The notes beneath the pieces are model-generated. The model saw only the letters and a list, made by a program, of their open reading frames with translations, was not told the origin of the DNA and did not search any database. From the NCBI GenBank assembly GCA_946410085.1, contig CAMJZA010000003.1, positions 1 to 64,000 on the forward strand: a stretch of DNA of 64,000 bases. Reading direction: 5' to 3'. The position numbers were made by a program, and so were the translations under genes. This DNA is from an uncultured Treponema sp. (GTDB lineage: Bacteria > Spirochaetota > Spirochaetia > Treponematales > Treponemataceae). Positions 1,679-46,730 of this stretch are shown piece by piece (the first letter of the stretch is position 1; each line of letters starts with the position of its first letter).

Positions 1679-2583
1679 TGTCTGAATTCTTGTAGTTTAA
1701 ATACTACAAACCGGCTGCTGTTTTTCCTGCTATCCTTCGGGGCACAAGGTCGTTGACCTTATACCGATTCTCAAGCCTGTATGTCAGGCTGGGTGCTGTC
1801 TCCCGTAAAAAAGACAGAAGGATAGTATATGACAAACATCAACAGTAAGCGCGAGACGAACTTCGCCGTGACCCTGAGCCCGTGCCAGTTCAGGGACCAC
1901 ACCTACGTTGCGCGCGTTCCCCGGCGGACGGTTACGACAGACCAGCTGCTGGACCTCGTTTCTGCCCACAATCAGGGAATTGACCGCTACCAGGTGGGAC
2001 ATGCGATGGAACTGCTCAAGAAGGAAATCCTTGAGCAGGCGGAACTGGGATTCGCCGTGGACATCATGGAAATCTGCAAGCTCTATGTTGCACCGATTTC
2101 TTCCGTGAAGACGCTCACGCCGGAGTCAGAATCCGTTTCCGGATTTGAAGCCCGCTTTGCCGTGAACAGGCAGCTCAAGAAACGGCTCCTGGGTGTTACG
2201 GCAACGGTCACCGCAGTGGTGGATTCTGCCCCGCAGCTTTCGCAGATTGTGAACCCCGTGAACGAAACAGAGGAAGGGGTTCTTGACGCAACCTTCAGCG
2301 CACGGATACGGGGCCACAAGCTCAAGGTCGGCGGAGAGGCAGGCGGCATCTTCTTTGTTCCTGTCACTGGAAGCGGTGAAGCAAATCCGGACGAGACAAG
2401 CTGGATCAAGGTTCCCGATGACTATGTAACGAAGAACACTGACGGCCTGCTGGAATTCCACCTTCCGCGGACGCTCGAAACCGGCAGTGAATACTTTATT
2501 GCCGTACGGACGGCACTTCGCGGCAACAAGGAACTGAAAAATCCGGTAACCGGCTTCAGTAAAATTCCCGTTACCATACGGTA
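1679..2583 (+). repeat. Long direct repeat, copy A (leader plus DUF4469 gene)
   Basis: This stretch matches 12320-13224 with a constant offset of 10641 and no indel that I can find. One mismatch lies in the leader (1698). The remaining differences noticed cluster in the last ~70 bp (from about 2512), where copy A reads ...ACGGCACTTCGC... and copy B ...ACTGCGGTCCGC.... The repeat spans a palindrome, a structured leader and a complete gene. No terminal inverted repeats or recombinase are visible. Confidence 0.9.
1690..1828 (+). promoter_or_regulatory. Structured 5' leader with sequestered Shine-Dalgarno, copy A
   Basis: A palindrome TTGTAGT-N6-ACTACAA (1690-1709) is followed by a multibranched fold. 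A 9-bp closing stem pairs CTATCCTTC (1730-1738) with GAAGGATAG (1817-1825). Inside are hairpins AAGGTC/GACCTT (1746-1760) and AGCCTG/CAGGCT (1774-1790), and a possible CTGTCT/AGACAG stem (1796-1817) that would compete for one base with the closing stem. The 3' strand of the closing stem is the ribosome-binding site of the gene starting at 1829, so the closed form should block initiation. It resembles a riboswitch or protein-autoregulated leader, but matches no class I recognise. Confidence 0.6.
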
Positions 2584-2845: not shown

Positions 2846-5800
2846 ATGCAGAAGAAAGTATATGTATATGACACTCCAATAGAAAATCTCCATCTTTCTC
2901 AGCGGTCTTATAATGTCCTAATGAATACTAATATTGATACGGTAGGAAAACTTGCTGCTTTTGTAAAATCGGATAGAGATGGATTGTTAAGTTTAAAAAA
3001 TCTCGGAAAAAAATCGGAAGAAGAGATCCTCAAGCTTCTTGATGGTATTGAGATTATTGGGATGGAGGAAATTGCTTATGATCAGCTAATAAGCAATAAT
3101 TGCTTTACACAGCAAAGTTGTAATAAATATATAGGAGAAACATCGAACAAAAAAGACACAGACTTCTTAAATCAGAAAGATTCACACAAAAAAATATACG
3201 CCTATAATACACCGATATCTGAGTTCAATCTTTCCTGTCGCTCTTATAATGTCCTCAAGAATAACAATATTGATACAATAGGCAAACTTACCGATTTTTT
3301 GAAGGTAAACACTAATGAGATTCTCCACTTTAATGGAATTGAATCAAGTACCGCTATGTACCTAGCTTCTCAATATCCACAGCTAATGAAGCTGAAGAAT
3401 CTTGGAGTCAAATCAGCACAAGAAATTCTAAACCTTCTTCAGGGTATTCAAATTGTAGACTCGGTAGAAGATATATGTGACACTTTGATAGATGACTGTG
3501 GTCTTTCTCAACGTGCAATCCGCAGTATCAAGTCACGAGATATAAAAACAATATCTGAATTGGAAAAGTATACTTTCGAAGAAATCAAGAAATGGGAAGA
3601 TATCGATAATTATACACTAGCAGAAATTTCTTGTACGTTGTATCCTGCAGATGACCAACCAATAACCGCACTTGGAACAAATGGCTGCATTTACTACTAT
3701 GTCATAAACAAATTCATGCTACAAAGTATGAATAAAAAGAATATAAGTGAATATAGTTTTTCAAACAGGGCTAAAAATGTTTTTAGAGAAAAACAAATAA
3801 AAACTCTTGTAGATTTGAAACAGTATTCTATTGAAGAAATAAGGAGATGGAGGAATGTCGGACAGAAAACAATTGACGAAATAATTGACATTTTGAGCCT
3901 GTCACAAGACATTCCCTTGGGACAGGAAAATATATCGAAGGATAAAATTAATATTTGCGTTTGTATTTCTGAGAATGCATTTCGTTTTTACACCGTATCG
4001 TTTTTATTCTTCAATAAACTTTTATCAATGTACTTTGAAAACGGTGCCTTACTTGATAAATTTCTAGAAGAAGAAGACAAATTTGAGTTTTGTGATACTT
4101 CTGCTATAGACGTCATTTTGTTTCAAAAAGAGTTCTTGAACACAAATCTTTTAAAGTTTTGCGAGTCTATTGCACAGGAGTTAAACAATTTTTCTGGAAC
4201 ACGAAAGAAGTCTTCTGTGGATATACTTATCGCTGCAATACATTGTATTCTTTTAAAACGTATTGAACTTGAAGGAATAATATATGCTCTTGATTCTACA
4301 TTCTATGATCTGGTGTGTAAGGATAAAATTTATCTTGAAGTTGTAAAACGGAAAGAGCTGGAGATTTTAAAAGACACGATATATCCAATCTCCGTGGATG
4401 ATTTTTATCAGTTTTTTCCTTTGGTTATTCAGAATTCAGGACTGGTAAACACAGCTCTGCGTGAGCTTAAGGAAGCAGGTGTCGTTCGAAAGCTTGAAAA
4501 TGATAGTTTTGAAATAATCCGGCCATCTGTTGTTGATTATATAGATGATGTCGAAGATGAAAAAGCAAAAGATATCTTAAAGCGAAGGATAATTAATGGA
4601 CAATCTCTGGAAGAAATAGCAAACAAATATGATTTAACACGCGAAAGAGTCAGGCAAATAATAGTCAAGAACTTCAAAACACAATCTGAGCACATATCAT
4701 TTGTAGAAGATAAATATGCATTCATTTATCAGAAGTACAATTTCAAGAAAAAGGATGCCAAAGTCATATTTGGAGATGTTGCAGCAAATTATTTTTTCTT
4801 AAGATATGAATCTGGAACGATAAATCTCGAAGAAAGTCTTGAAGACAAATCCATTCCGCAGGATATGCGAAAACGCATTCAAAATGAGATAGTTTATACT
4901 GACTACATTGCTGTAGAAAATCAATACGTAAAGAAGTTTCGACCAGACTTATATGATTATTACATCAGACACTATTGTACAGAAGACATCGAACTTGATA
5001 TATTCATAAAGGAATACAGTGCGTTTTGGGAGCGTCATGGTGTAGAGAAAGAAATTTATGAGGTAGATAGTCGGACCATTCAAGGGCAGATGTCAAAAAA
5101 GAAGAATATTCTGTACAAATACCCTCGGACATTCCGCTTCTATGACTTTGACCAGTACGATTTTACAGATTTACTGGACACGCTTAATCTTTCGCAATAT
5201 GAAAATGTTATGCTTTCTACAGCGAAATTCACAAAAGACTATCCGAAGCTGATGAAAAGATATGACATTAGAGATGAATATGAGCTACACAGTCTTTTGC
5301 GAACATTGTTGGAAGATAAAGAGAACAACATAACTTTTCATAGGATGCCAGGGATAGAATTTGGAAAAGCAGATGTAAATGCACAGGTCCTGGAACTGTT
5401 AAACGAAAATGCCCCTGTTTCTCCAGAGAAACTCTCCCTCCTATATGAAGAAAAATACGGTGCACAGGCTATGACCGTTCGAGCCAGTTATTTTAACTGT
5501 ATAAGCAAGTACCTTCAGAATGGATTATATATTATAGATTTACCATCGTTGACAGATGATGAGTTTGAATATCTTAAACAGCAATTAACAGATGATTTTT
5601 ATACTATAAAAGATGCGAAGAAAATATTGGAACAAAAATTTACTGATTCATCGCATATAAACTCAATGACTCTAAAAGAGCTTGGATTTATCGTTAATGA
5701 GAATTACATTGTTAATGGAAGGTTTGAGTCTGCGGCTTCTTACTTCAAGTATCTTTTGTCAAAAAACGAAAAGATAACCTATGAGGGTATTCCTGTAGAA

Positions 5801-6340
5801 ATAAGGCATGTTGTAATGTTCAATACGGTTCTTAACAGCCTTCTTGATGATTATGAGATAGTTGAATATGACAAGAAAAAATATTTGAACTTCTCCAAAC
5901 TTTCGAGTATAGGAATAATAAAAGAGGATATTCATGATTTCTGCAAAGAAATATACTCTTTAAATTTATCAGAGTTTTTCGGAATGAAGCAAGTAAAAGA
6001 AACCGGTTTTAAACATAAACTCTTTGAGCTTGGATTTGACGATTGGTTTTATGAGCGAATCCTGTCACGAAACGACACTCTCTTTTCAAGCCAACAAATA
6101 GGTGGAAGTATAGTTCTCTCCAAAGGAAGACAAACGGTAACATGGGTCTCATTGCTGGAATATCTCCTGCCAGAGGAAGGAATGAATATACACAGGCTTG
6201 CAGAAAAACTGAATGCAGACTATGGCATGCGCGTTAGTAAAAATGATATCTTGGCAAGAATAATAGATAGTAATTTATATTATGACAAGATTATGGAAAA
6301 GCTGTATATTTGCTATGCAGATTATTTTGCGGAGGCTTAA
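2846..6340 (+). CDS. Large protein with RpoA-CTD-like repeats and sigma-region-4-like HTH
   Basis: This is an 1164-aa cytosolic protein. The N-terminal ~360 residues hold about four copies of a module like the C-terminal domain of RNA polymerase alpha: TPIENLHLSQRSYNVL then LKNLGKKSEEEILKLL (10-66); TPISEFNLSCRSYNVL (~122) then LKNLGVKSAQEILNLL; a diverged one near 215-265; and FSNRAKNVFREKQIKTL then WRNVGQKTIDEIIDIL (~305-355). Around residues 565-605 sits a sigma-70 region-4-type HTH (SLEEIANKYDLTRERVRQII). The remaining ~550 residues are not recognised. Real alpha has a single CTD, which contacts DNA, sigma and activators, so a protein that mimics or senses transcription machinery is an inference. 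It is first in an AT-rich operon, and its stop is two bases before the next start. Confidence 0.7.
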   Translation: MQKKVYVYDTPIENLHLSQRSYNVLMNTNIDTVGKLAAFVKSDRDGLLSLKNLGKKSEEEILKLLDGIEIIGMEEIAYDQLISNNCFTQQSCNKYIGETSNKKDTDFLNQKDSHKKIYAYNTPISEFNLSCRSYNVLKNNNIDTIGKLTDFLKVNTNEILHFNGIESSTAMYLASQYPQLMKLKNLGVKSAQEILNLLQGIQIVDSVEDICDTLIDDCGLSQRAIRSIKSRDIKTISELEKYTFEEIKKWEDIDNYTLAEISCTLYPADDQPITALGTNGCIYYYVINKFMLQSMNKKNISEYSFSNRAKNVFREKQIKTLVDLKQYSIEEIRRWRNVGQKTIDEIIDILSLSQDIPLGQENISKDKINICVCISENAFRFYTVSFLFFNKLLSMYFENGALLDKFLEEEDKFEFCDTSAIDVILFQKEFLNTNLLKFCESIAQELNNFSGTRKKSSVDILIAAIHCILLKRIELEGIIYALDSTFYDLVCKDKIYLEVVKRKELEILKDTIYPISVDDFYQFFPLVIQNSGLVNTALRELKEAGVVRKLENDSFEIIRPSVVDYIDDVEDEKAKDILKRRIINGQSLEEIANKYDLTRERVRQIIVKNFKTQSEHISFVEDKYAFIYQKYNFKKKDAKVIFGDVAANYFFLRYESGTINLEESLEDKSIPQDMRKRIQNEIVYTDYIAVENQYVKKFRPDLYDYYIRHYCTEDIELDIFIKEYSAFWERHGVEKEIYEVDSRTIQGQMSKKKNILYKYPRTFRFYDFDQYDFTDLLDTLNLSQYENVMLSTAKFTKDYPKLMKRYDIRDEYELHSLLRTLLEDKENNITFHRMPGIEFGKADVNAQVLELLNENAPVSPEKLSLLYEEKYGAQAMTVRASYFNCISKYLQNGLYIIDLPSLTDDEFEYLKQQLTDDFYTIKDAKKILEQKFTDSSHINSMTLKELGFIVNENYIVNGRFESAASYFKYLLSKNEKITYEGIPVEIRHVVMFNTVLNSLLDDYEIVEYDKKKYLNFSKLSSIGIIKEDIHDFCKEIYSLNLSEFFGMKQVKETGFKHKLFELGFDDWFYERILSRNDTLFSSQQIGGSIVLSKGRQTVTWVSLLEYLLPEEGMNIHRLAEKLNADYGMRVSKNDILARIIDSNLYYDKIMEKLYICYADYFAEA

Positions 6341-6342
6341 AA

Positions 6343-7557
6343 ATGACGTTGTTAGACGAAGGCTTGGAAAGTGGTGCTGTTGTAAAGACTCAGATGTCCA
6401 AAAAGTTTTCAATCGATGGGACAACACAAGTTTTCCCTGTGTATCGTATAAGGCTTGATTTGTTATATTTTAATGACCAGAATAATCGTATAGCGACATG
6501 GCTGAGTCAATACCGCTCGGAACATAATGGTGATTCGCCATCTACCAATGATAAAGAATCCTTCAACAGGATTATTGAAGATTACATCATAAAGAGCAAT
6601 CCAGAGGCCATAAAGCGCACGGAAACGAATATAGAACTTGTTGATCAGCGTGAGCCGGGTGTCGTATTGAACGATGGCCGCATTATAGATGGAAACAGAC
6701 GTTTTACTTGTCTTCGCCATCTTGCAAGGAAAACGGAGAAATTCAATGCATTCGAGGCCATTATCCTTAACAGGGACATAGAGAAAAGTGCAAAACAGAT
6801 AAAACTTTTGGAACTTGCGATTCAGCATGGTGAAGAAAGCAAGGTCGATTACAATCCAATAGATGAACTGGTCGGTATTTATAATGATATTGTACTGACA
6901 AAGCTTGTCTCGGAAGAGGAGTATGCAAGGAGTTGTAATATCCCTCTAAAAGATGTAAAGCACCGCCTTGAAAATGCAAGGCTCTTGAATGAGTTTTTGG
7001 AATACATAAATGCTCCTAGGCAATACCATATTGCCCGGGACTTGGATATTGCCACATCTCTTGATGCTCTCAATATCCTGTTAAAGAAACTGCATGATGA
7101 AGAAGAAAGGGAAAAAACGAAAATCTGTATTTTTACAAATATCATTATGCACACAGGATCGGATATGAAAATTTTTGTCCGTGACATCGGAAAAGTTGCA
7201 AATTCCATTTACTTTGATGAATATCTTGAGGAGCAATTACCCATAGCTGAACAAGTTGCGAATATGCTTCCTGAAATTGGAAAAAGCAATGCGGCTTCCA
7301 TAACACAAACAGTAAGAAAGAATGACAGCATTCGCAATGACTTGGAAGATTCACTTGAGAAGGTTCTGTATAAAACAAAGCGCAAAGAAACAAGAAATCT
7401 TCCTGCAAAGAACCTCTCAAAGGCAAAATCGATACTTGAAGGAATAGATACAAATATCTTTCAAAAACTATCAGAGGACGAAATTAACGATGTAAAGCGT
7501 GAGTTGAACAGATTAAAGTTTTATGTTTCTGAAATAGAAAGGAAGCTAAATGTTTGA
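6343..7557 (+). CDS. ParB-like domain protein
   Basis: This 404-aa protein starts at the ATG behind GGAGG, which overlaps the end of the preceding gene. The N-terminal ~130 residues read as a ParB/Srx-type nuclease-like domain: VFPVYRIRLDLLYF at the start, then VLNDGRIIDGNRRFTCLRHL, matching the family pattern of Gly-x-Ile-x-Asp-Gly-(H/N)-(H/R)-R. The middle is helical with charged segments, as in ParB DNA-binding regions, and the C-terminus (KSILEGIDTNIF...LKFYVSEIERKL) looks coiled-coil. It may be a DNA- or nucleotide-binding partner rather than a partition protein, as no ParA is nearby. It lies between the RpoA-CTD-like gene and the helicase and overlaps the helicase start by 8 bp. Confidence 0.65.
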   Translation: MTLLDEGLESGAVVKTQMSKKFSIDGTTQVFPVYRIRLDLLYFNDQNNRIATWLSQYRSEHNGDSPSTNDKESFNRIIEDYIIKSNPEAIKRTETNIELVDQREPGVVLNDGRIIDGNRRFTCLRHLARKTEKFNAFEAIILNRDIEKSAKQIKLLELAIQHGEESKVDYNPIDELVGIYNDIVLTKLVSEEEYARSCNIPLKDVKHRLENARLLNEFLEYINAPRQYHIARDLDIATSLDALNILLKKLHDEEEREKTKICIFTNIIMHTGSDMKIFVRDIGKVANSIYFDEYLEEQLPIAEQVANMLPEIGKSNAASITQTVRKNDSIRNDLEDSLEKVLYKTKRKETRNLPAKNLSKAKSILEGIDTNIFQKLSEDEINDVKRELNRLKFYVSEIERKLNV

Positions 7558-9442
7558 TTGTATCTTTATTTTCAGTAACCAATTTCTTCTCAAATTTGCA
7601 TCTGAAAACCTGACAGAATTTCAAGCAACTTTTTTCTACAAGTTATATATAAAGATGTATGTAGAAAAAGTAGTTGACAATACAATTATTTTCAGAAGGA
7701 ACTTTTCCTATCTAAAACTTAACAAACTACTGGAAACTTTGAAGGGAGCTGCAGATCGCTATAAAATTACATGGCAGATAGATGATAGTGTTAATGCTTA
7801 TATAAAAGAAAAAGAAATTCATATAGAAGAACGCTATAAGCTTGGAAACGAGTTGAAGCATCATGACGCAAAACTCTTGGAAAGGTTCAACCAATATAAG
7901 GAAATTGTAAACTCTCTGATGATTCGTCCCCTGCGAGAACGTCAGATGTGGGATTCTTTCTTTATGTTTGCAATGCAAAAGGCTGGAAACTTTTCGGTTC
8001 CTGGCTCCGGGAAAACAGCGGCAGCCCTTGGTGTTTATGCATATTTGTATAAAATGAAAAGAATCAACCGTGTTATAGTGATTTGTCCTAAAAATGCTTT
8101 TGGCTCATGGATTGACGAATTTGGCTTGTCCTTTGGCGACAATATTTCGTTGCATTATTTTATGCTGCATAATAAAGCATATAAAAGCATTCAAGAAAAG
8201 AAAAACGCAATACTATATGACTCTGGAAAATCAAACCTTCTTCTGTTCAACTATGAATCCTTGAGAACATATTGCAATGACATCTCGCAAATTGTTGACA
8301 ATGAAACGCTGTTAATATTTGATGAGGTTCATAAGGTTAAGAAAATAAATGGGGAATATGCTGTAAACGCCTTGAAGATTGCAGAGAATGCCAGCTCAGC
8401 GATAGCAATGACTGGAACACCGATACCAAATTCATACTTGGATATTTACAATTTCCTGCATATTCTTTTTCCAAATGAATACGATGATTTCTTTGGCTTC
8501 GAAACCAGCACATTGGCAAATCCCGGAAAGGATATGATGCAAGTGATAAACCTGAGAATACAACCGTTCTTTTGCAGAACAAACAAACAGGAGATGAATG
8601 TCCCGCCTCCAAATCCAGATTTTATAGATTTCTTTTCATCAACAAAAGACGAAAATGAGGTTTTGAACATCTTGTTGAAAAAATACAGGGGGAATAACCT
8701 TGCTTTGTTCGTAAGGATTCTTCAGTTGGAATCAAATCCGAAGAGGCTTCTCGAAGTGCTTGACATAAGCGAATTCTGCCACATCTTTGATATAGATATA
8801 AAGGATGAAGAGAAGATTGATTTTGCTGATTACTCAGAGGATATAAAAAAGCTTATAAACTCTATATCTATAACGACTAAGTTTAAGAGATGTTTACATA
8901 TTGTGAATCAAATTGTGGATGAGAATAAACCTGTAATAATCTGGTGTATATTCAGGGATACGATTCAGCATTTCTCAAAGGCGCTAAAAGAAATAGGAAT
9001 AACTGCAAAATGTATTTATGGGGAAGTAGAGCTTGAAGAACGGCAAAGATTGCTTCAGTCATTCAGGGATAGGGAGTTTGAAGTTCTGATAACCAATCCG
9101 CATACGCTTGCTGAATCAGTTTCCCTTCATTCTGTTTGTCATGATGCAGTATACTTCGAGTACAGCTACAATCTCGTACATTTGCTTCAATCAAAAGACC
9201 GTATCCATCGCTTGGGGTTGCCACCGGATCAATATACACAATATTACTTCTTGCAACAGAATTATCGGATAAATGATATCTATTTTGGGGTCGGAGACTT
9301 TTCTTTGGATAAAAAGGTTTATGACAGGCTCCTTGAGAAAGAACATATTATGTTAGAAGCCATTGATAATGACATTCTTGAGACGATGCCCACAAATGAA
9401 GAGGAGTTGAACATGATTTTTAAGGAATTTGATAAAAGGTAG
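7550..9442 (+). CDS. SNF2-type DEAD/DEAH helicase
   Basis: This 630-aa superfamily 2 ATPase has Walker A PGSGKTAAAL (~151), a segment VIVICPKNAFGSWIDEF (motif Ia), DEVH (~258), TGTP (~290), and a C-terminal helicase lobe with VIIWCIFRD (motif IV) and LLQSKDRIHRLG (motif VI, ~547). The arrangement is that of SNF2/Rad54-like translocases. The first ~140 residues show no known domain and may be a partner-binding region. It overlaps the ParB-like gene by 8 bp, so the two are probably translationally coupled. Such ATPases are common engines of anti-phage and DNA-modification systems; that role here is inferred from context. All key motifs are present, so it is likely active. Confidence 0.85.
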   Translation: MFDCIFIFSNQFLLKFASENLTEFQATFFYKLYIKMYVEKVVDNTIIFRRNFSYLKLNKLLETLKGAADRYKITWQIDDSVNAYIKEKEIHIEERYKLGNELKHHDAKLLERFNQYKEIVNSLMIRPLRERQMWDSFFMFAMQKAGNFSVPGSGKTAAALGVYAYLYKMKRINRVIVICPKNAFGSWIDEFGLSFGDNISLHYFMLHNKAYKSIQEKKNAILYDSGKSNLLLFNYESLRTYCNDISQIVDNETLLIFDEVHKVKKINGEYAVNALKIAENASSAIAMTGTPIPNSYLDIYNFLHILFPNEYDDFFGFETSTLANPGKDMMQVINLRIQPFFCRTNKQEMNVPPPNPDFIDFFSSTKDENEVLNILLKKYRGNNLALFVRILQLESNPKRLLEVLDISEFCHIFDIDIKDEEKIDFADYSEDIKKLINSISITTKFKRCLHIVNQIVDENKPVIIWCIFRDTIQHFSKALKEIGITAKCIYGEVELEERQRLLQSFRDREFEVLITNPHTLAESVSLHSVCHDAVYFEYSYNLVHLLQSKDRIHRLGLPPDQYTQYYFLQQNYRINDIYFGVGDFSLDKKVYDRLLEKEHIMLEAIDNDILETMPTNEEELNMIFKEFDKR

Positions 9443-9510: not shown

Positions 9511-10371
9511 ATGGATTATATTGATTACAGAAAACAACTTGGTATTGACTTCAATGATTCTGAGAAGCAGAAGCTGTTTGTAAAAAGAATTCATACACTA
9601 TTTCTTACAAGATATGAAGTAGAGTTTTGTGAGAATGAAGATATAAAATTCTGTTGTGAGATGGGATTTGAAAGTCTTATTGAGAAACGTGATATGCAAC
9701 ATTTAATACTGTCAAAAAATAATGAACCACTTGGTATGAAACGTTTGTTTTATTATCTTGACTCTTATTCTAAGGACTTTTATGATTATCTGTATGGCAT
9801 TTTAACTTTTCTAAATATCTGTGTTTTTGATTCAGAAATAAAAATCTCTATGTTTAATGCAGTAAAAACGGCTTTAGAAAGTTGTCATATTCAATATGAT
9901 TGTTTTCAGGAAAACGAAAAATATTTTATATTTCCAAAAGGAGCAAAAGAACTTGATAGGGCTTTGGTATCAGAACCATTAGAATGGCTTTCTAACTATC
10001 CAAATTCAAGAAAATCATTCGTAAAAGCATTGGAATTATACTCTAATTCTACTAATAATAATGCAAGTGATGTTGCAGATGCTTTTAGAAAAGCATTAGA
10101 GACTTTCTTTCAAGATTTTTTTGAATTGAAGGATTTAACGATTGAAAAAACATTAGAAAGAAATGTGTATGAAAGATATTTGAAAGAAAAGGAGATTCCT
10201 GGTGAAATCAGGAACAATTTTCGTTCTCTTCTGGATTCATATCGAAATTTTATGAATAATTACGCAAAGCACCATGATAAAACGACAAATAGTATATTAG
10301 AATATATTATGTATCAGACTGGAAATATAATTCGATTATTGATTACTTTGAAGCATTCAGAAGAGAAATGA
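9511..10371 (+). CDS. Abortive-infection-like protein (weak similarity to AbiJ/HEPN-type C-termini)
   Basis: This 286-aa protein has no signal peptide or membrane segment. The C-terminal half (about 165-286) resembles domains at the end of abortive-infection proteins: EWLSNYPNSRKSFVKALELY, SDVADAFRKALETFFQDFF, then a helix ending RNFMNNYAKHHD and a final ILEYIMYQTGNIIRLLI. The Arg/His pair in RNFMNNYAKHH recalls HEPN ribonuclease motifs (R-x4-6-H), but the spacing is not canonical. The N-terminal half is not recognised. It starts 68 bp after the helicase gene in the same direction and base composition, so it probably belongs to the same unit as a possible effector. Function is inferred from position and weak similarity. 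Confidence 0.5.
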   Translation: MDYIDYRKQLGIDFNDSEKQKLFVKRIHTLFLTRYEVEFCENEDIKFCCEMGFESLIEKRDMQHLILSKNNEPLGMKRLFYYLDSYSKDFYDYLYGILTFLNICVFDSEIKISMFNAVKTALESCHIQYDCFQENEKYFIFPKGAKELDRALVSEPLEWLSNYPNSRKSFVKALELYSNSTNNNASDVADAFRKALETFFQDFFELKDLTIEKTLERNVYERYLKEKEIPGEIRNNFRSLLDSYRNFMNNYAKHHDKTTNSILEYIMYQTGNIIRLLITLKHSEEK

Positions 10372-10488: not shown

Positions 10489-10692
10489 ATGAGTAACATA
10501 CATATCAATTCAATAAATATCGACACCTACAGGGGAATCAGAAAGCTCAAGCTGGAAGGGTTTATGAGAGTCAATATCCTTACAGGGGACGACAACTGTG
10601 GTAAAACGAGTGTTCTTGAACTGCTGAATATGCTCATAAACCAAACGGATGTGCAGGTATGGCAGTCGGTTATATGGAGGTCCTCATGTTAG
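10489..10692 (+). pseudogene. Truncated OLD-type AAA ATPase (N-terminal stub)
   Basis: This 67-codon frame starts like an OLD-family or RecF-like ATPase (INSINIDTYRGIRKLKLEGF) and contains a Walker A P-loop (GDDNCGKTSVLELL). Similarity fades about ten residues before its stop, exactly where the next gene's ribosome-binding site begins (GGAGG at about 10677). The other ~300 or more residues expected for the family are missing. OLD ATPases are often effectors in defence systems, so this is probably the relic of another defence gene cut by insertion of the AlbA_2 gene. Confidence 0.75.
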
Positions 10693-12296
10693 ACCTGCAA
10701 TCACTTCTTTCCTCTCGTTCTGAAAATGAAGTTCTTGAATTCAAGGAAGCAAAGAACAGCTTTGACATCGACAAGCTTGGTAAGTATTTTTCTGCACTGA
10801 GCAACGAAGCGAATCTTGCAGGCAAGGACAAGGCATATCTGCTTTTCGGTGTAAAGGATGACAGGACTATCGTCGGAACGAATATTTCTGATTCGACGGT
10901 CAACGAGTTTAAACGGGAAATTTCCAAAAATACGTCGCCGACCATTTCTTTTCTTGATGTCGAACGGATTCAGACGGCTGACGGCGATGTACTTTGCTGT
11001 GTGATTCCTGCCGCCCCGCACGGAGTTCCGATTGCATGGAAGGATTTGTATTACGGCAGGGCGGGAGAGAGCCTTGGCGGATTGAACCTTGATGAGATTC
11101 AGCGGATTCTGAATCAGACCCGATACAGTGACTGGAGCGCACAGATTGTTCCGAATGCGACGATAGGACACCTCTCTCCAAAAGCGATTAAACTTGCACG
11201 GACGATGTACGCCGAAAAGAATCCCCGGTTGGCGGGCGATATTGAACGCTGGGATGACCAGACCTTCTTGAACAATGCACGGCTTACCCGAGAGGGAAAG
11301 ATAACCAATGCGACGGTTCTTCTTTTAGGAAAGCGGGAGTCAGAAGATTTGATTCTTCCTGCCCTCAGTCAGATTACCTGGATTCTGAAGGACCGTGATG
11401 GTGTTGTGAAGGATTACGAGCACTTCTTCTGCCCGCTGATTGTTTCAGCTGAACAGGTACAGCAGAAAATCAGGAATCTCACATACCGCTATATGACGGG
11501 TGTCTCAATTTTCCCGAAGGAGACTTTGCAGTATGACCCTTATATCATTCGCGAGGCTTTGAATAATTGCATTGCCCATCAGGACTACACGAGGGCTGGA
11601 AGAATCACGGTACAGGAGCATGAGGATGACTATCTGATTTTCTGTAATTGCGGTGATTTCATTCCGGGAAGCATCGAGAATGTACTGAAGGCAGAATATT
11701 CTGCGAGCAATTATCGCAATCCGTTCCTTGCAACCGCTATGGTGAATCTGAATATGATAGATACGGTTGGCAGCGGAATCCTCAAGATGTTCCTTGCCCA
11801 GAAAATGCGTTGCTTTCCGCTCCCGGATTATGACTTCTCCAATCACGAAGTTCGCATGAAGCTGTACGGCAAGATTCTTGACGCACAGTATACAAAAAGA
11901 CTTCTTGATGAAGATTTAACGCTCCCGGAAGTACTTGTACTGGACAGGAAGCAGAAAGAAACATATGTGAACGCAGGAGCAAAATTTGACGTTACTGTAC
12001 AAAGCTTCGTTGATGACGGTAATGCCACGGTAGATGGGACTATGCCCAATAAACTGCCCAATAAACTGCCCAATAAACTGCCCAATAAACTGTCGGAAAA
12101 TACCCGAAAAACATATCATGCAATAGCCGAAAACCCGGCAGCGACCATCCGGCAGTTGTCTTCCCAACTTGGATTTTCAGAACGCACAATAAAAAGTCAT
12201 CAATCCCTGCTAAAAGAGGCTGGACTTATACAATATGTTGGTTCCAGGAAAGACGGCTACTGGAAAATTCTGGAAACGGAGGCTGACGGGAGCTGA
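10686..12296 (+). CDS. AlbA_2/Schlafen-type ATP-binding protein with winged helix
   Basis: This is the intact member of a family that is broken at both window ends. The start is the ATG at 10686 behind GGAGG, giving 536 aa. Order: AlbA_2 domain (residues 1-150; NEVLEFKEAKNSF, then GKDKAYLLFGVKDD, then YYGRAGESLGGLNLDEI), an HATPase_c_4-like region (REALNNCIAHQDY; DTVGSGILKMF), a linker with four LPNK-type repeats (12045-12092), and a winged-helix domain (IRQLSSQLGFSERTIKSHQSLL) ending YVGSRKDGYWKIL. The family is often called putative transcriptional regulators or RecG-like; some members take part in phage defence. It lies just 23 bp upstream of repeat copy B, and its broken relative lies upstream of copy A, which suggests a linked unit. 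Confidence 0.85.
   Translation: MLDLQSLLSSRSENEVLEFKEAKNSFDIDKLGKYFSALSNEANLAGKDKAYLLFGVKDDRTIVGTNISDSTVNEFKREISKNTSPTISFLDVERIQTADGDVLCCVIPAAPHGVPIAWKDLYYGRAGESLGGLNLDEIQRILNQTRYSDWSAQIVPNATIGHLSPKAIKLARTMYAEKNPRLAGDIERWDDQTFLNNARLTREGKITNATVLLLGKRESEDLILPALSQITWILKDRDGVVKDYEHFFCPLIVSAEQVQQKIRNLTYRYMTGVSIFPKETLQYDPYIIREALNNCIAHQDYTRAGRITVQEHEDDYLIFCNCGDFIPGSIENVLKAEYSASNYRNPFLATAMVNLNMIDTVGSGILKMFLAQKMRCFPLPDYDFSNHEVRMKLYGKILDAQYTKRLLDEDLTLPEVLVLDRKQKETYVNAGAKFDVTVQSFVDDGNATVDGTMPNKLPNKLPNKLPNKLSENTRKTYHAIAENPAATIRQLSSQLGFSERTIKSHQSLLKEAGLIQYVGSRKDGYWKILETEADGS
12045..12092 (+). repeat. 12-bp tandem repeat (4 units) encoding PNKL linker
   Basis: Four perfect in-frame units (CCCAATAAACTG) encode (PNKL)4 between the ATPase half and the winged helix. 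Slippage by one unit would change linker length without breaking the frame. Confidence 0.9.
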
Positions 12297-12319: not shown

Positions 12320-13224
12320 TGTCTGAATTCTTGTAGTTAAAATACTACAAACCGGCTGCTGTTTTTCCTGCTATCCTTCGGGGCACAAGGTCGTTGACCT
12401 TATACCGATTCTCAAGCCTGTATGTCAGGCTGGGTGCTGTCTCCCGTAAAAAAGACAGAAGGATAGTATATGACAAACATCAACAGTAAGCGCGAGACGA
12501 ACTTCGCCGTGACCCTGAGCCCGTGCCAGTTCAGGGACCACACCTACGTTGCGCGCGTTCCCCGGCGGACGGTTACGACAGACCAGCTGCTGGACCTCGT
12601 TTCTGCCCACAATCAGGGAATTGACCGCTACCAGGTGGGACATGCGATGGAACTGCTCAAGAAGGAAATCCTTGAGCAGGCGGAACTGGGATTCGCCGTG
12701 GACATCATGGAAATCTGCAAGCTCTATGTTGCACCGATTTCTTCCGTGAAGACGCTCACGCCGGAGTCAGAATCCGTTTCCGGATTTGAAGCCCGCTTTG
12801 CCGTGAACAGGCAGCTCAAGAAACGGCTCCTGGGTGTTACGGCAACGGTCACCGCAGTGGTGGATTCTGCCCCGCAGCTTTCGCAGATTGTGAACCCCGT
12901 GAACGAAACAGAGGAAGGGGTTCTTGACGCAACCTTCAGCGCACGGATACGGGGCCACAAGCTCAAGGTCGGCGGAGAGGCAGGCGGCATCTTCTTTGTT
13001 CCTGTCACTGGAAGCGGTGAAGCAAATCCGGACGAGACAAGCTGGATCAAGGTTCCCGATGACTATGTAACGAAGAACACTGACGGCCTGCTGGAATTCC
13101 ACCTTCCGCGGACGCTCGAAACCGGCAGTGAATACTTTATTGCCGTACGGACTGCGGTCCGCGGCAATAAGGAACTGAAAAACCCGGTAACCGGCTTCAG
13201 TAAAATTCCCGTTACGATCCGCTA
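12320..13224 (+). repeat. Long direct repeat, copy B (leader plus DUF4469 gene)
   Basis: This is the second copy of the ~905 bp repeat and begins 24 bp after the AlbA_2 gene. Flanking sequence differs completely from copy A on both sides (left ...CGGTCCGCC versus ...GATTCAAA; right GGCGCCAGG versus CGTCTGTCA), so the match ends are sharp. Confidence 0.9.
12331..12469 (+). promoter_or_regulatory. Structured 5' leader with sequestered Shine-Dalgarno, copy B
   Basis: It has the same palindrome (12331-12350) and multibranch leader as copy A. The only difference (12339, T to A) falls in the palindrome loop, so every stem is kept. The closing stem again pairs with the ribosome-binding site of the gene at 12470. 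Confidence 0.6.
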
Positions 13225-13225
13225 G
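12470..13225 (+). CDS. HU-like DNA-binding domain protein with DUF4469, copy B
   Basis: This 251-aa protein is identical to the product of 1829-2584 except for one residue near the C-terminus (Val for Leu). The HU-like N-terminal domain and DUF4469 C-terminal domain are as described there. The stop is followed by a strong GC hairpin and T-run, so it is probably monocistronic from a promoter in the repeat or upstream. Near identity between two copies 10.6 kb apart implies recent duplication or ongoing gene conversion. Confidence 0.8.
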   Translation: MTNINSKRETNFAVTLSPCQFRDHTYVARVPRRTVTTDQLLDLVSAHNQGIDRYQVGHAMELLKKEILEQAELGFAVDIMEICKLYVAPISSVKTLTPESESVSGFEARFAVNRQLKKRLLGVTATVTAVVDSAPQLSQIVNPVNETEEGVLDATFSARIRGHKLKVGGEAGGIFFVPVTGSGEANPDETSWIKVPDDYVTKNTDGLLEFHLPRTLETGSEYFIAVRTAVRGNKELKNPVTGFSKIPVTIR

Positions 13226-13244
13226 GCGCCAGGCGCTTGGTGCC

Positions 13245-13300
13245 CCGGCCTGTCCGCATTGTGTGGGCGGGCCGGTAAGCGTCTGGCAGTTTTTTTAGGT
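13245..13300 (+). terminator. Probable terminator after DUF4469 copy B
   Basis: CCGGCC (13245-13250) pairs with GGCCGG (13270-13275), with GTCC/GGGC-type pairs inside. A seven-T run follows ~15 nt later (13290-13296). The distance from stem to T-run is longer than usual. Confidence 0.5.
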
Positions 13301-13383
13301 GTCGCCCAGCGGCTTGTTCGTTGCCCTTTCTGCGCCCTCAAATGCCGCCTCAACGCCCGCTGAAAAATTGTTTTGATTTTCCC

Positions 13384-13414
13384 TTGACCTGGCCGGAAGG
13401 GCCGGGTTTAGTAT
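13384..13414 (+). promoter_or_regulatory. Candidate sigma-70 promoter for creatininase operon
   Basis: TTGACC (13384-13389), then 17 nt, then TTTAGT (13407-13412), or TAGTAT two bases further on. This leaves a leader of about 115 nt before the start at 13532. Confidence 0.45.
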
Positions 13415-13531
13415 ATGGCTCAGGTTTGCAGGCGATATGCAAACGATACGCAGCCGGCAGGCGGACAGCCGCGGCAGATGTCCCGCGCTTTTGTCGCAGG
13501 AGACGCTCTCAGGCTGCTGCAGGAGGAAACA

Positions 13532-14413
13532 ATGAAGGACCTGAGCCTATTGACATGGAAGGAGATTAAGTCGCTCGATAAGGAAAAGAGCATCGTGTTT
13601 GTCGTGCTTGCTCCGATCGAAGAGCACGGCCTGTGCCTGCCGCTTGCGACGGATCTGCTGGAGGGACTGCACTGGAGCAGGGGCGCCATGGCCCGTGTGG
13701 AAGCCGCCCTGGATGCCGAATGCTGCTACCTGCCGCCGTTTCCGGTTGCAGCCGCCTCGGTCACCGGCTTCTACGGTTCGATCCATTTTACGATGAAGAC
13801 CACGTATGACGTTGCCCGGGGCATTCTTGAAAGCTTGTGCTGCATGGATTTCATGCACATCATCGTCATCGCATCCCATGCGGACCCCCAGCACCAGATT
13901 GCCGTCGAAAAGGCCGTGCGGAAGGTAAACCGCAGGTATGGAACCCGTGCAATGGCTCCGATGGGGCCGATATTCATGGGAGCGGGTGTTGCACAGGCAG
14001 AGCCGGTCCGGCGTATGCAGCAGGAACATGCGGATGACTATCATGCAGGCTGGGTCGAAACTTCATGCATGCTGGACATTGACCGCAGCAGCGTTCGGGA
14101 CGGCTACCGGCAGCTGCCCGATTCAGAGATTTTCGGCAGGGATATGATCTTCAGGAAAAGGCAGGAGCAGGCGATGGGGGTATACGGGCACATCGGCTCC
14201 CCGCAATACGCAACGGCGGAACTGGGAAAGCTGCTGAACGAAAACTGCATTGCTTCCCTCTGTGAAGCGGTGGTATGCTTTTATAAGCGGAGCGGCTATC
14301 AAAGGTATGCGAAGTATCCGCTGTACGCAATCCTTCCGCTCCATATCGGCTTTCTGGGCATGGCCGGAAAGGTACGGCGGAGGAGTCCGGAAAAAAGGAG
14401 GCAGGGAGCATGA
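13532..14413 (+). CDS. Creatininase-family amidohydrolase (divergent)
   Basis: The start is the ATG at 13532 behind AGGAGGAAACA; upstream in-frame codons do not look like protein. The product is 293 aa, close to the family's usual 240-270 plus a basic tail. The first metal-binding block is present (APIEEHGLCLPLATD), and HAGWVETSCML matches the family's HAGExETSxML with Trp in place of Glu. The normal Asn-Gly-His-Gly-Gly-Asn block is replaced by IASHADPQHQIAVE, keeping one His. Family members hydrolyse cyclic amides such as creatinine or formamides made in riboflavin/F420 or mycofactocin pathways; the substrate here is unknown. It overlaps the MerR gene by 4 bp (ATGA), so the two are co-transcribed. 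Confidence 0.75.
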   Translation: MKDLSLLTWKEIKSLDKEKSIVFVVLAPIEEHGLCLPLATDLLEGLHWSRGAMARVEAALDAECCYLPPFPVAAASVTGFYGSIHFTMKTTYDVARGILESLCCMDFMHIIVIASHADPQHQIAVEKAVRKVNRRYGTRAMAPMGPIFMGAGVAQAEPVRRMQQEHADDYHAGWVETSCMLDIDRSSVRDGYRQLPDSEIFGRDMIFRKRQEQAMGVYGHIGSPQYATAELGKLLNENCIASLCEAVVCFYKRSGYQRYAKYPLYAILPLHIGFLGMAGKVRRRSPEKRRQGA

Positions 14414-15327
14414 TGTATTCACGGGGTCAGTTTGCCGTCATGGGCAAAGTGGGGCGGAAGGCACTCCGCCTGTATCACGAAGAAGGGCTGCTTGTTCCCG
14501 CGCATACAAACGAGGCGAACGGCTATCATTATTATGCGGAAGAACAGCTTGCCGTCCTTGCGCGGATAAAACGGCTCAGGGCCATCGGCCTTTCCCTCTT
14601 TGAAATCAGGCAGGTGCTCGACGGGAATGCCAGCGAGGACAGGCTCGTGAAAGGCAGGATACGGGAGATGCGTGCGCAGCTTGCGTCGGTCAGGGAACTG
14701 GCTTCGCAGGAAGACTTCCCTGCCGGTTCTGCAGACGGAAAAAGAGCGGGTGCCATTCCCGACATGCAGCGCTTTGAACGGAAATGCTGCCTGTTCATCG
14801 ATGAAAACGTCGAAAAAGAAGACCTCGGCATGTCGGTCGGCAGGCTGCATGAAAAGGCGGCCCGGGAAGGCCTGCGCGTGCAGGGAAGCCATTTTGTCAT
14901 CTATACCGGGCTGGCGGACGAAAACGCCTTTTCCATGCGGACCTGCCTGCCGGTGAGCGCCGGAACTGGAGGGGCAGACAGGGATGGTGACGGTGATACT
15001 GCCGGCGCTCGTGGCAACAGCGGTGGAACTGGTGGAACTGGAGGGGCTGCCGGGGACGGCACTATTGAAGTTGACGGCAGGGGAGATGCCGCCGGTGCCG
15101 CTGGAACCGGTGCTGTTGCTGGAGACGGCATTACCGACGTCTGTGAGGAATGTTGCCTGCACCTGAACTTTCGGGGCGGCTTTTCAAGAACGGGGGAAGC
15201 CCATCGGATCATCAGGCACTATGCGGAAGGACAGGGCATTGCCCTTGCGGACAGCGTCGTAGAAGTCTACAACCGGGATATGTCGGTGGACGTGTACTGG
15301 CCGCTGAAGGCCGCCCCTGAAGCCTGA
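14410..15327 (+). CDS. MerR-family transcriptional regulator with low-complexity insert
   Basis: This 305-aa protein has an N-terminal MerR HTH and wing (YSRGQFAVMGKVGRKALRLY, then NGYHYYAEEQLAVLARIKRL, ~1-70), the MerR dimerisation helix, and a C-terminal effector-binding domain that resumes in the last ~60 residues (IRHYAEGQGIALADSVVEVY, then DVYWPLK). Residues about 185-245 are a Gly/Ala/Thr-rich insert (GGTGGTGGAAGDG style) that splits the effector domain. It overlaps the creatininase gene by 4 bp and may regulate it or a transporter in response to a small molecule. The insert is one of several of this kind in the window. Confidence 0.8.
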   Translation: MMYSRGQFAVMGKVGRKALRLYHEEGLLVPAHTNEANGYHYYAEEQLAVLARIKRLRAIGLSLFEIRQVLDGNASEDRLVKGRIREMRAQLASVRELASQEDFPAGSADGKRAGAIPDMQRFERKCCLFIDENVEKEDLGMSVGRLHEKAAREGLRVQGSHFVIYTGLADENAFSMRTCLPVSAGTGGADRDGDGDTAGARGNSGGTGGTGGAAGDGTIEVDGRGDAAGAAGTGAVAGDGITDVCEECCLHLNFRGGFSRTGEAHRIIRHYAEGQGIALADSVVEVYNRDMSVDVYWPLKAAPEA

Positions 15328-15387
15328 GCGGCGGAATCCTGTTTCCTGTCCTGCCGCAGAAGACCGGCCAGCGGAACCTTGCCGGAA

Positions 15388-15900
15388 CTACAGTACCCGT
15401 ATCTGGCAGAGCTTCATCGCGGCAAGGGCGGTCGCGTGGCTTTCCGGCGTGACGCAGGCACAGCAGGAGGAATCCGCCGTAATCGGAACTTCCGGTAGTT
15501 TTGCCTTGAGGATGAAGGCGTTGCTGATGACGCAGATGCCGGTGCACAGGCCGACGAGCTCTATGTCCGTCAGCCCGTCCAGCGTTGCCGCGAAGTCGGC
15601 AAGTGCCAGGGAGCCGAACGAGGGTTTGTCAAAAATCTGGCTGTCTCCGACCGGAAGTTTGTCCGAAATCTGCCAGCCCTGCGTTCCTTCGACGTAGTGG
15701 ACGACGGGAAGGTTCTTCCCCTCCTGCGTTTCAAGATAGTTCTGCTGATGCGTGTCGCGCGTAAACACGACCATATCGCCCGCAGCCCGGGCGCGGGCAA
15801 TCTTTGCCGCAACGGCGGGGACGATGGCGGCCGCCTCTTTTGTTCCCAGCGCGCCGTCAATAAAATCATTCTGCATGTCAATGACGATGAGCAGTTTCAT
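15388..15900 (-). CDS. Nicotinamidase/isochorismatase-family hydrolase
   Basis: The start is at 15900, behind AGGAGG, giving 170 aa; extensions further upstream do not resemble the family. Catalytic triad: Asp in LIVIDMQNDF (residue 8), Lys in FDKPSFGSL, Cys in LVGLCTGICVISNA. The stretch DSSCCACVTPESHATAL matches the nicotinamidase signature (canonical DACxGVTPESH). It probably deamidates nicotinamide or a related amide for NAD salvage, although the metal-site histidines of classical PncA are only partly visible (FTRDTH present). The gene stands alone and convergent with the MerR operon. A fragment nearly identical to its 3' end lies at 2631-2740. Confidence 0.8.
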   Translation of the reverse strand: MKLLIVIDMQNDFIDGALGTKEAAAIVPAVAAKIARARAAGDMVVFTRDTHQQNYLETQEGKNLPVVHYVEGTQGWQISDKLPVGDSQIFDKPSFGSLALADFAATLDGLTDIELVGLCTGICVISNAFILKAKLPEVPITADSSCCACVTPESHATALAAMKLCQIRVL

Positions 15901-27678: not shown

Positions 27679-28494
27679 CTACGCAACCGTGAACACAGCC
27701 GGGAAGGTGGACGACAGGGGGCTTTTGCGGATATGCTGGCCGTTCACGTATTGCGTCACCACCCGGATGCGGTACTCAGAGCCCTTGTCAAGTTCCCCGG
27801 GGACAAGGCATTCGATGGCGGACGGCCTGTTGCGGAAGAGCTTCCCGGGCGCAAGCTTTACTGACCCGCCGGGATTCGTCACGCTGTCGAAGTAAAGGCC
27901 GACAGCATCGCTTCCGCCCTCAATGCGGAGCCGCCTGCCTTCGATGAAAAGGATATTCCCCCGGCTGAGCGTCCCGGTTTCCTGCCGCTGCGGTCCCGGG
28001 CCGTTCCCGCCAGTGCAATCCCTGCTGTCCCAGCCGGAGCCGATGTCACGGACGCGCAGGAGCTCGGGATGGCATGTGTTTCCCTGCCTGATGACGGTGT
28101 CCAGAGATTCCATCACCTTTTTCATGCCCTCGGACGGCCTGTAGCGGACCGTAAGCCGGTTCCTGTTCCTCCTGAAGCCTGACTGCTCGTTGTCAAAGCT
28201 GCCGCTGACTGCCGGGGAGAGTACCCCGAGCCCGAAGTCCACGGACATCCCGGAACTTATGCGCACCGCTATGGCGTTCATCACGGCATCCCAGTTCTTC
28301 TTCATGTAAGCGGCGTCAAAGCCGTCGTCGCCAGCGCGCAGGTCGTTGAAGATGTCATCTATCCTGAGCGTCCCCCTGTTGATGACGCGGGCAAAGAAGC
28401 TTTCCTCCCCGCGCATGCCGTTCGCGTACAATGCGATGGGAAGCTTGCCGGTCTTGGGCTCGGTATCCTCACCGCCGATGAATTCCTGTATCAT
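27679..28494 (-). CDS. Divergent HU-like/DUF4469 protein
   Basis: This 271-aa protein has the same layout as the two near-identical proteins at 1829 and 12470: an N-terminal HU-like region (PIALYANGMRGEESFFARVI, then KNWDAVMNAIAVRISSGMSV) and a C-terminal DUF4469 domain (GNILFIEGRRLRIEGG, then FRNRPSAIECLVPGELDKG). Sequence identity to them is low. The leader lacks the fold seen in the duplicated copies. Upstream on the same strand lies the 22-bp tandem array. Confidence 0.7.
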   Translation of the reverse strand: MIQEFIGGEDTEPKTGKLPIALYANGMRGEESFFARVINRGTLRIDDIFNDLRAGDDGFDAAYMKKNWDAVMNAIAVRISSGMSVDFGLGVLSPAVSGSFDNEQSGFRRNRNRLTVRYRPSEGMKKVMESLDTVIRQGNTCHPELLRVRDIGSGWDSRDCTGGNGPGPQRQETGTLSRGNILFIEGRRLRIEGGSDAVGLYFDSVTNPGGSVKLAPGKLFRNRPSAIECLVPGELDKGSEYRIRVVTQYVNGQHIRKSPLSSTFPAVFTVA

Positions 28495-46140: not shown

Positions 46141-46730
46141 TATCGTTCCTCGTCTGTTTTGTAAAAGTAGGGCGGTATTTCATTATATTGTCTGATAATG
46201 CAATACCCCCCCCTACTATACTAGGGCATATTCTGCCGTAATGTCAAGGGAAAAAGCGTCATTTTCAGAGAATTTTTGTATTTTCCGGGCTTTTGCGCAG
46301 GCGGACCGTCTCCTGCCCTGGAGAGGGTGTCGCTCCCGTCCTGGAGAGGGTTCGTATACAGCCCTGGAGAGAGTCCGTATACAGTCCTGGAGAGAGTCTG
46401 TATACAGCCCTGGAGAGGGTCTGTATACAGGCCATGCATCGGTCTGTTGCATTGCGGGGCACTTGAAGATCCGCCTCGGGCTGCCTTGCCTCAGGCTGCG
46501 GACGGCCGGAGTGGGTACTGCCTGGCGGGGCTTTTTTGCGTTTTTTCCAGTTTTTTCCTGCAAAGTGTACAAAAAGAGCATTCCTCCACAGATAAGCAGG
46601 TACAAGCACGCAGGGCTTGAGCACAGCACAAGCCCTGCATTCGCCATGCCCGTCAGGCACCCGGCGGGCGTGGTGCAGGGGGCTCCTGCCCCCTCTTGTG
46701 CCTCACGCACAATTATGTGGAGGAAAACGT
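46141..46730. other. Intergenic region with poly-C tract and 23-bp array
   Basis: No gene is supported in these 590 bp, although repeat-derived frames are open on both strands. It holds the promoter region of the lipoprotein gene, the C8 tract (46206-46213), the 23-bp tandem array (46317-46431), a GC/T-rich stretch with TTTTTTGCG and TTTTTTCC words (46537-46560), and the leader of the Rpn gene. Confidence 0.6.
46317..46431. repeat. 23-bp tandem repeat, five units
   Basis: Units begin at 46317, 46340, 46363, 46386 and 46409, exactly 23 bp apart, with consensus CCTGGAGAGRGTYYGTATACAG-C. The first unit is diverged in its second half. Each of the others contains GTATAC, often extended to the palindrome CTGTATACAG. 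Spacing is close to two helical turns, and there are no unique spacers as in CRISPR. Confidence 0.9.

Follow-up and report, generated by a model that had tools for sequence, protein, structure and literature searches.

Autogenous leaders, which are bound by the protein of their own gene, occur in ribosomal-protein operons. In bacterial promoters, the transcription start is expected 6–8 nt downstream of the −10 hexamer. We analysed a segment that can be compared with both. It lies upstream of a DUF4469 gene in an uncultured Treponema sp. (GCA_946410085.1, contig CAMJZA010000003.1, positions 1–64,000, forward strand; this whole stretch of 64,000 nt is called the window). An earlier note on this DNA had proposed a closed RNA domain that hides the ribosome-binding site of the gene. 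We consider it probable that the segment is an operator and promoter of the DUF4469 family and that a short leader bearing conserved hairpins, whose RNA would start at approximately 1743, comes after it. At the level of sequence, this reading is supported by the geometry and specificity of a promoter box, the breakdown of a 9-bp stem, covariation in one hairpin (P1) and two compensated pairs in another (P3). We infer in addition a transcription start, a regulator and a role for each hairpin.

The DUF4469 genes and their surroundings

The gene (copy A, 1829–2584, + strand) encodes 251 amino acids and matches PF14734 with an E-value of 3e-17. Its Shine-Dalgarno sequence, AAGGA (1818–1822, + strand), is read directly from the sequence, 6 nt ahead of the ATG at 1829. 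Further upstream lies the palindrome TTGTAGTTTAAATACTACAA (1690–1709). As the earlier note described, CTATCCTTC (1730–1738) is perfectly complementary to GAAGGATAG (1817–1825) over 9 bp in both copies of the leader, and hairpins are present inside this stem at 1746–1760, 1774–1790 and 1796–1817. The second copy of the operator, promoter and leader (12331–12469, + strand) precedes copy B of the gene (12470–13225, + strand); it was correctly reported to differ by a single base, in the loop of the palindrome. Copies A and B are 98% identical across 942 bp and, being recent duplicates, count as one observation, not two.

The copies are part of direct repeats (1679–2717 and 12320–15454) that consist of the DUF4469 unit and the end of an isochorismatase-like gene. 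These repeats flank approximately 9.6 kb with defence-like genes, which encode an RpoA-CTD/PglW-like protein (2846–6340), a SNF2/ZorD-like helicase (7550–9442), a PDC-S32-like protein (9511–10371) and a Schlafen AlbA_2 protein (10659–12296). The genes just upstream of the two copies have 12-bp in-frame tandem repeats near their ends (1108–1170 and 12045–12095), which read VPVNVPVN... and LPNKLPNK... and are possibly length-variable linkers. At 46307–46444, a 23-bp unit with CCTGGAGAG is repeated in tandem.

DUF4469 proteins can be viewed as HU-like plus Ig-like. The HU-like domain that the earlier note ascribed to the copy A protein does have an N-terminal match (PF14848), but at 22.4 bits this match is below the Pfam cut-off of 30. 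The predicted structure has a mean pLDDT of 50, with low confidence in the N-terminal half, and a sequence search matched the protein to no solved structure. The source genome contains 18 dispersed PF14734 matches; DUF4469 is present in about half of the genomes sampled from the genus, with up to 20 copies per treponeme genome. We found no paper bearing the name DUF4469 in the literature searched.

Searching the leader across the genus with blastn gave a single clear homologue (L022/L278) and a few partial homologues; most weak matches were due to chance. In a scan of 84,980 species genomes, orthologues of gene A that are 64–75% identical were found at 13 loci, all in Treponema or Spirochaetales/Spirochaetaceae records; a search of viral contigs gave none. 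Three of the 13 (T. ruminis, one uncultured Treponema and RUG14227) have the same leader family. Among the other ten, five (L279, L280, L282, L284 and L285) keep CTACA-21/22-TAnnTT and have a different leader, which suggests that the operator and promoter are older or more constrained than the leader.

With Rfam 15, the 64-kb window gave no match at the gathering threshold, and positions 1600–1900 gave none at E ≤ 5, in agreement with the earlier note, which could assign no known riboswitch. The evidence supports a leader that is conserved, bears hairpins and matches no Rfam family.

The 9-bp stem and the ribosome-binding site

The idea of a closed domain depends on the 9-bp stem (1730–1738 with 1817–1825), and this stem is broken in relatives. 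Seven of its nine pairs are kept in L023, six in L276, five in each of L278, L027 and L003, four in L028 and two in L262; all nine are found only in copies A and B. Lost pairs are not compensated in any of these seven homologous leaders, an outcome that the earlier note itself had named as refuting its proposal. A −10 element (..CTT) and a Shine-Dalgarno sequence (AAGG) would form the remaining pairs in any case. When the −10 and Shine-Dalgarno windows were swapped among DUF4469 loci, perfect helices of 7–8 bp arose in 6 of 378 pairs, and helices of 9 bp never did. The 9-bp match is unusual, though ..CCTT.. and AAGG sequences partly match by themselves.

The 5′ arm of the stem coincides with an extended −10 element (TGcTATCCT, 1728–1736, + strand), so that transcription should start at approximately 1743, downstream of the arm. 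The predicted start (1742–1744, + strand) is placed by its distance of 6–8 nt from the −10 hexamer, and it is in this inferred sense that it lies beyond 1738, the position past which a start was said to speak against the closed domain. The 5′ arm is probably promoter DNA. RNA carrying the arm could nevertheless arise by read-through from upstream or from a second promoter.

We scored the accessibility of the Shine-Dalgarno sequence (at 1819–1823) by folding the RNA from different starts. The probability of being unpaired is 0.01 if the RNA starts at or before 1730, and 0.30–0.44 for starts at 1735–1748; for five homologues, folded as predicted transcripts, it is 0.73–0.89. The Shine-Dalgarno sequence is hidden only when the 5′ arm of the stem is included in the RNA. 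The folding energy behaves similarly: positions 1690–1840 fold with a z-score of −3.75, better than all 200 dinucleotide shuffles, and the z-score is only about −1.5 when the RNA begins at the predicted start at 1743, so the excess is due mainly to the inclusion of the palindrome and the 5′ arm. Judged against its seven homologues, the window leader lacks a masking helix with compensatory changes, which we expect of a leader that masks the Shine-Dalgarno sequence. Most probably, the ribosome-binding site is not masked by the 9-bp stem.

We also considered a stem around P1 (UCGG at 1737–1740 with CCGA at ~1764–1767). We rejected it, although it appears by eye to be compensated in L278 and L259: its position is ahead of the predicted start, and L276, L023 and L028 have lost it.

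A probable operator and promoter box, nearly exclusive to DUF4469 genes

The 20-bp palindrome TTGTAG-N8-CTACAA (1690–1709) is a probable operator, centred approximately at −43.5 from the predicted start. The extended −10 element, which overlaps the 5′ arm of the stem, follows its CTACA by 22 nt. Among 156 distinct upstream regions of DUF4469 genes, CTACA-N22-TAnnYT occurs in 15 and the N21 version in 4, where shuffles lead one to expect 0.1–0.4. Other spacings are close to background in these 156 regions, except for N25 with 4 occurrences. What is conserved between CTACA and TAnnYT is the length, not the sequence. The window has the features of this arrangement, namely an extended −10 with TAnnYT 21–22 nt past CTACA. 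Its −10 hexamer, TATCCT, is weak, and a consensus scan reported no sigma-70 site at this hexamer.

In four other DUF4469 genes, the ATG is only about 30 nt past the TAnnYT element, with the Shine-Dalgarno sequence in between. The third DUF4469 gene in the window (27679–28494, − strand) also has the box, and because only about 30 nt separate its −10 element from the ATG, it has no structured leader.

The pattern ACTACA-N21/22-TATMTT has 13 sites in the source genome, versus 2 for a reversed control. Nine of these precede DUF4469 genes from among the 18 PF14734 matches of the genome, a tenth (C25) is ahead of a truncated DUF4469 copy, and the promoter sequence at an eleventh (C55) is identical to that of one DUF4469 gene. 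The exact box occurs twice in T. ruminis (CP031518.1), both times ahead of DUF4469 genes, and the same is true of genome G086. Within the source genome, the composite box is almost confined to DUF4469 genes. Two of its copies there (L083 in C25 and L092 in C116) have an intact promoter box and a DUF4469 gene that is truncated soon after the start codon. Among the few sites at other genes are those with a GACAAAATACTACA box at L269 (C129) and L270 (C17:33-46), before a small gene and an NlpC/P60 gene.

Hairpins of the leader

P1 (AAGGUC-GUU-GACCUU, 1746–1760, + strand) has a CGUUG that is invariant in 13 leaders, and covariance-model matches to it occur in other genomes. If the leader has a ligand-binding core, CGUUG is the only invariant candidate for it in the window leader. 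Across the 13 sequences, 92% of the cells are paired and four of the five pairs show double changes, which amount to 8 cells compared with 2.8 in shuffles; these counts are inflated, given that L056, L076, L009 and L011 were noticed owing to the hairpin and three others were found with a model that includes P1. The covariation of P1 is 0.485 versus 0.206, a value that none of 500 shuffles reached, and every slid register scored lower.

P2 (AGCCUG-UAUGU-CAGGCU, 1774–1790, + strand) is kept in L278, L023, L028 and L262 and missing from the T. ruminis orthologue. Because its sequence hardly varies, it says nothing for or against pairing. P3 (CUGUCU...AGACAG, 1796–1817, + strand) directly adjoins the Shine-Dalgarno sequence. 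Two of its pairs are compensated in the T. ruminis orthologue of gene A (L276), which also has P1 and the box, with TATCTT as the −10 hexamer, although the covariation of P3 alone is not significant (62 of 500 shuffles were as high). P3 with a Shine-Dalgarno sequence directly behind it also occurs before DUF4469 genes of another subfamily in several genomes (L024, L026, L140, L196 and L198). Over the whole DUF4469 set, a hairpin that abuts the Shine-Dalgarno sequence is not enriched (24 vs. 17), and we dropped it as a family-wide rule.

A covariance model of the −10, P1 and P2 region (R1) strongly matched sequences before DUF4469 genes and one leader without a gene in the source genome (C11). 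The two best matches in its weak range that we checked (L263 and L264) have no DUF4469 gene. The leader without a gene (L259, C11, 32459–32530) comprises the operator, promoter and P1–P2 leader, and is a solo or decayed copy.

A four-hairpin leader in other treponemes

A different leader, with four hairpins, was found before other DUF4469 genes. We recognized it in L056, L075, L076, L077, L154 and L195, and then in L327, L332, L340 and L344; it ends in GACC-loop-GGGGTCAA. A covariance model (R2) was built without giving either the switching helix, P0, or the Shine-Dalgarno sequence as pairs. A search with R2 brought up four additional loci within the genus, with E-values from 9e-12 to 2e-8, and another four elsewhere in the family, in other genera (9e-6 to 8e-13). 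Position or protein match places each of the eight directly before a DUF4469 gene. The R2 loci, which lie outside the window, are L345–L358, L372 and L375–L378; L332/L346 (G194) is an exception in being ahead of a DUF4417 gene, and the member in G037 sits at a contig end. A pattern search for the GGGGTCAA hairpin across the genus gave mostly chance matches and was abandoned. In Rfam, the R2 loci searched had no match other than a tRNA in L076.

In an alignment of 15 members, which was fitted to the model and hence leans towards it, 93% of the cells pair and 15 of 21 pairs show double changes. There are 45 such cells versus 12 in shuffles; none of 500 shuffles was as high, and slid registers were far lower. 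In 14 members, 105 of 113 positions of P0, whose strands were picked by eye, are paired (e.g., AUGCGUGA/UCACGCAU, GUGUGGUA/UACCACAC and CGUGGUAUGC/GCAUACCACG). The Shine-Dalgarno/start region of a locus is likewise complementary to the 3′ strand of its P0, examples of strand and region being GAUACCAC and GUGGUAUC, AUAGUAUCAC and GUGAUACUAU, and AGCAUAC and GUAUGCU. This match is specific to the locus: when the Shine-Dalgarno windows of 16 loci were permuted 100,000 times, the observed sum was never reached, and the fraction was 0.008 for the six loci found only with the model, where neither fraction is a strict probability given that R2 loci are not independent. In L056, L327, L340, L144, L121 and L375, uninterrupted Watson-Crick pairing with the Shine-Dalgarno/start region is at most 5 bp. 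The predicted energies of the two competing helices are similar in several members (−11.7/−14.0, −12.9/−13.3 and −12.6/−12.4 kcal/mol), as expected for two competing states.

By its sequence, the four-hairpin leader is a good candidate for an RNA switch. A leader that masks the Shine-Dalgarno sequence does seem to exist before other DUF4469 genes, outside the window. It is the strongest RNA signal of our analysis and is a lead worth pursuing. L006, L173 and L204 represent a further class, in which a 5′ strand after the start (UAAGGUUG, AUAAGGUUG and AAAGCUGCCGCG) pairs with a later strand and, judged by eye, seems to change with compensation.

The window leader and the R2 class have the gene family and a CGUUG element in common. 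CGUUG is inside P0 in L056, L076 and L154, with GCAC or ACAC nearby. In the source-genome paralogues L009, L011 and L012, a strong stem surrounds P1 and has CCUCC, complementary to GGAGG, in its 3′ strand. The R2 model gave no match in the window at E ≤ 10 or in the source genome at E ≤ 0.1. In the window leader, pairing of the segment after P1 with the Shine-Dalgarno sequence is no better than in shuffles (0.47), and we therefore keep R2 membership as a minority reading.

Proposed explanation and its rivals

We propose that the segment controls transcription as well as translation and is shared by the dispersed DUF4469 genes. A palindromic operator (1690–1709) would stand at a fixed distance from the extended −10 element (1728–1736), and RNA would start at approximately 1743, giving a 5′ UTR of about 86 nt with P1, P2 and P3. 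The most likely role of P3, which ends exactly at the Shine-Dalgarno sequence, is to hold the ribosome-binding site exposed and in position, not to hide it. P1, with its conserved CGUUG loop, is probably a recognition element or one that stabilizes the 5′ end. The DUF4469 genes are probably under the joint control of a common trans-acting regulator that acts at the operator.

Among the rival explanations, everything could happen at the level of DNA, with P1 and the palindrome as two operators for transcription factors and the hairpins incidental. As DNA, P1 is close to a palindrome and is found just past the predicted start, and the palindrome has a position typical for regulators. However, P1 keeps its loop invariant and shows compensated changes in its arms, a pattern more readily explained by RNA than by a DNA half-site, and compensated changes are also seen in P3 beside the Shine-Dalgarno sequence; we regard this rival as unlikely. 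It is doubtful to a like degree that treponeme DUF4469 genes are subject to cis-acting RNA switches of a new family, where a single strand would alternate between a CGUUG-containing domain and the Shine-Dalgarno/start region, and of which the window leader would be a shortened member with a DUF4469-specific operator in addition. Also unlikely is a narrower version, a reduced relative of the four-hairpin leader that still switches between P1 with its flanks and a masking helix (~1760–1772 with ~1819–1830). The four-hairpin model misses the window leader, and the pairing stays at the level of shuffles not only in the window but also in L278, L276, L023, L028 and L027. In its favour, a GCAC motif near CGUUG is shared within the same gene family, one predicted fold of the transcript pairs the ~1760–1772 region with the Shine-Dalgarno sequence, and the stem around P1 in the three paralogues carries the CCUCC described above.

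The repeated segment might instead be the end of a gene cassette that is mobile or recombines, repeated for recombination and not for regulation. Direct repeats around a defence-like island would suit such a cassette, as would truncated copies, a leader that no gene follows, and the dispersal of the family, which has 18 matches in the genome. Yet what the paralogues have in common is a promoter of fixed spacing, not element ends; the neighbourhoods of the orthologues differ and have no common ends, and the repeat has no integrase or transposase associated with it. We find a cassette quite unlikely. As for the closed RNA domain, opened by a ligand or by the protein itself, the perfect stem in copies A and B and the nearly complete pairing of the Shine-Dalgarno sequence that results from that stem are in its favour. 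Given that the 5′ arm coincides with the −10 element, that the stem is broken without compensation in all seven homologues, and that A and B are not two observations, it is very unlikely. The perfect stem, as read from the sequence alone, was probably half promoter.

Comparison with known systems

A box that is nearly exclusive to DUF4469 genes, together with a candidate RNA switch in a subset of them, suggests joint control of expression and provides a handle on the function of DUF4469. Like autogenous leaders, the window has a conserved hairpin before a gene whose product may bind nucleic acid. Unlike the case of such leaders, the HU-like match is sub-threshold, and what the paralogues share most widely is the operator box, not the leader. 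The 5′ UTR resembles riboswitches that sequester the Shine-Dalgarno sequence in having hairpins upstream of the ribosome-binding site and adjoining it, but it has no conserved alternative pairing with the Shine-Dalgarno sequence and no Rfam match.

The four-hairpin leader is similar in its location before DUF4469 genes and in the CGUUG of several members. The differences are that the first two hairpins of that class and its GGGGTCAA hairpin are missing from the window leader, which R2 fails to match. In comparison with extended −10 (TGn) promoters of the sigma-70 type, the hexamer TATCCT is weak and no −35 consensus was found. By contrast, the TGnTAnnnT pattern, the fixed spacing and a start expected 6–8 nt downstream all agree with such promoters, and the palindrome just upstream of the −35 position corresponds to an extended −10 promoter with a site for a regulator.
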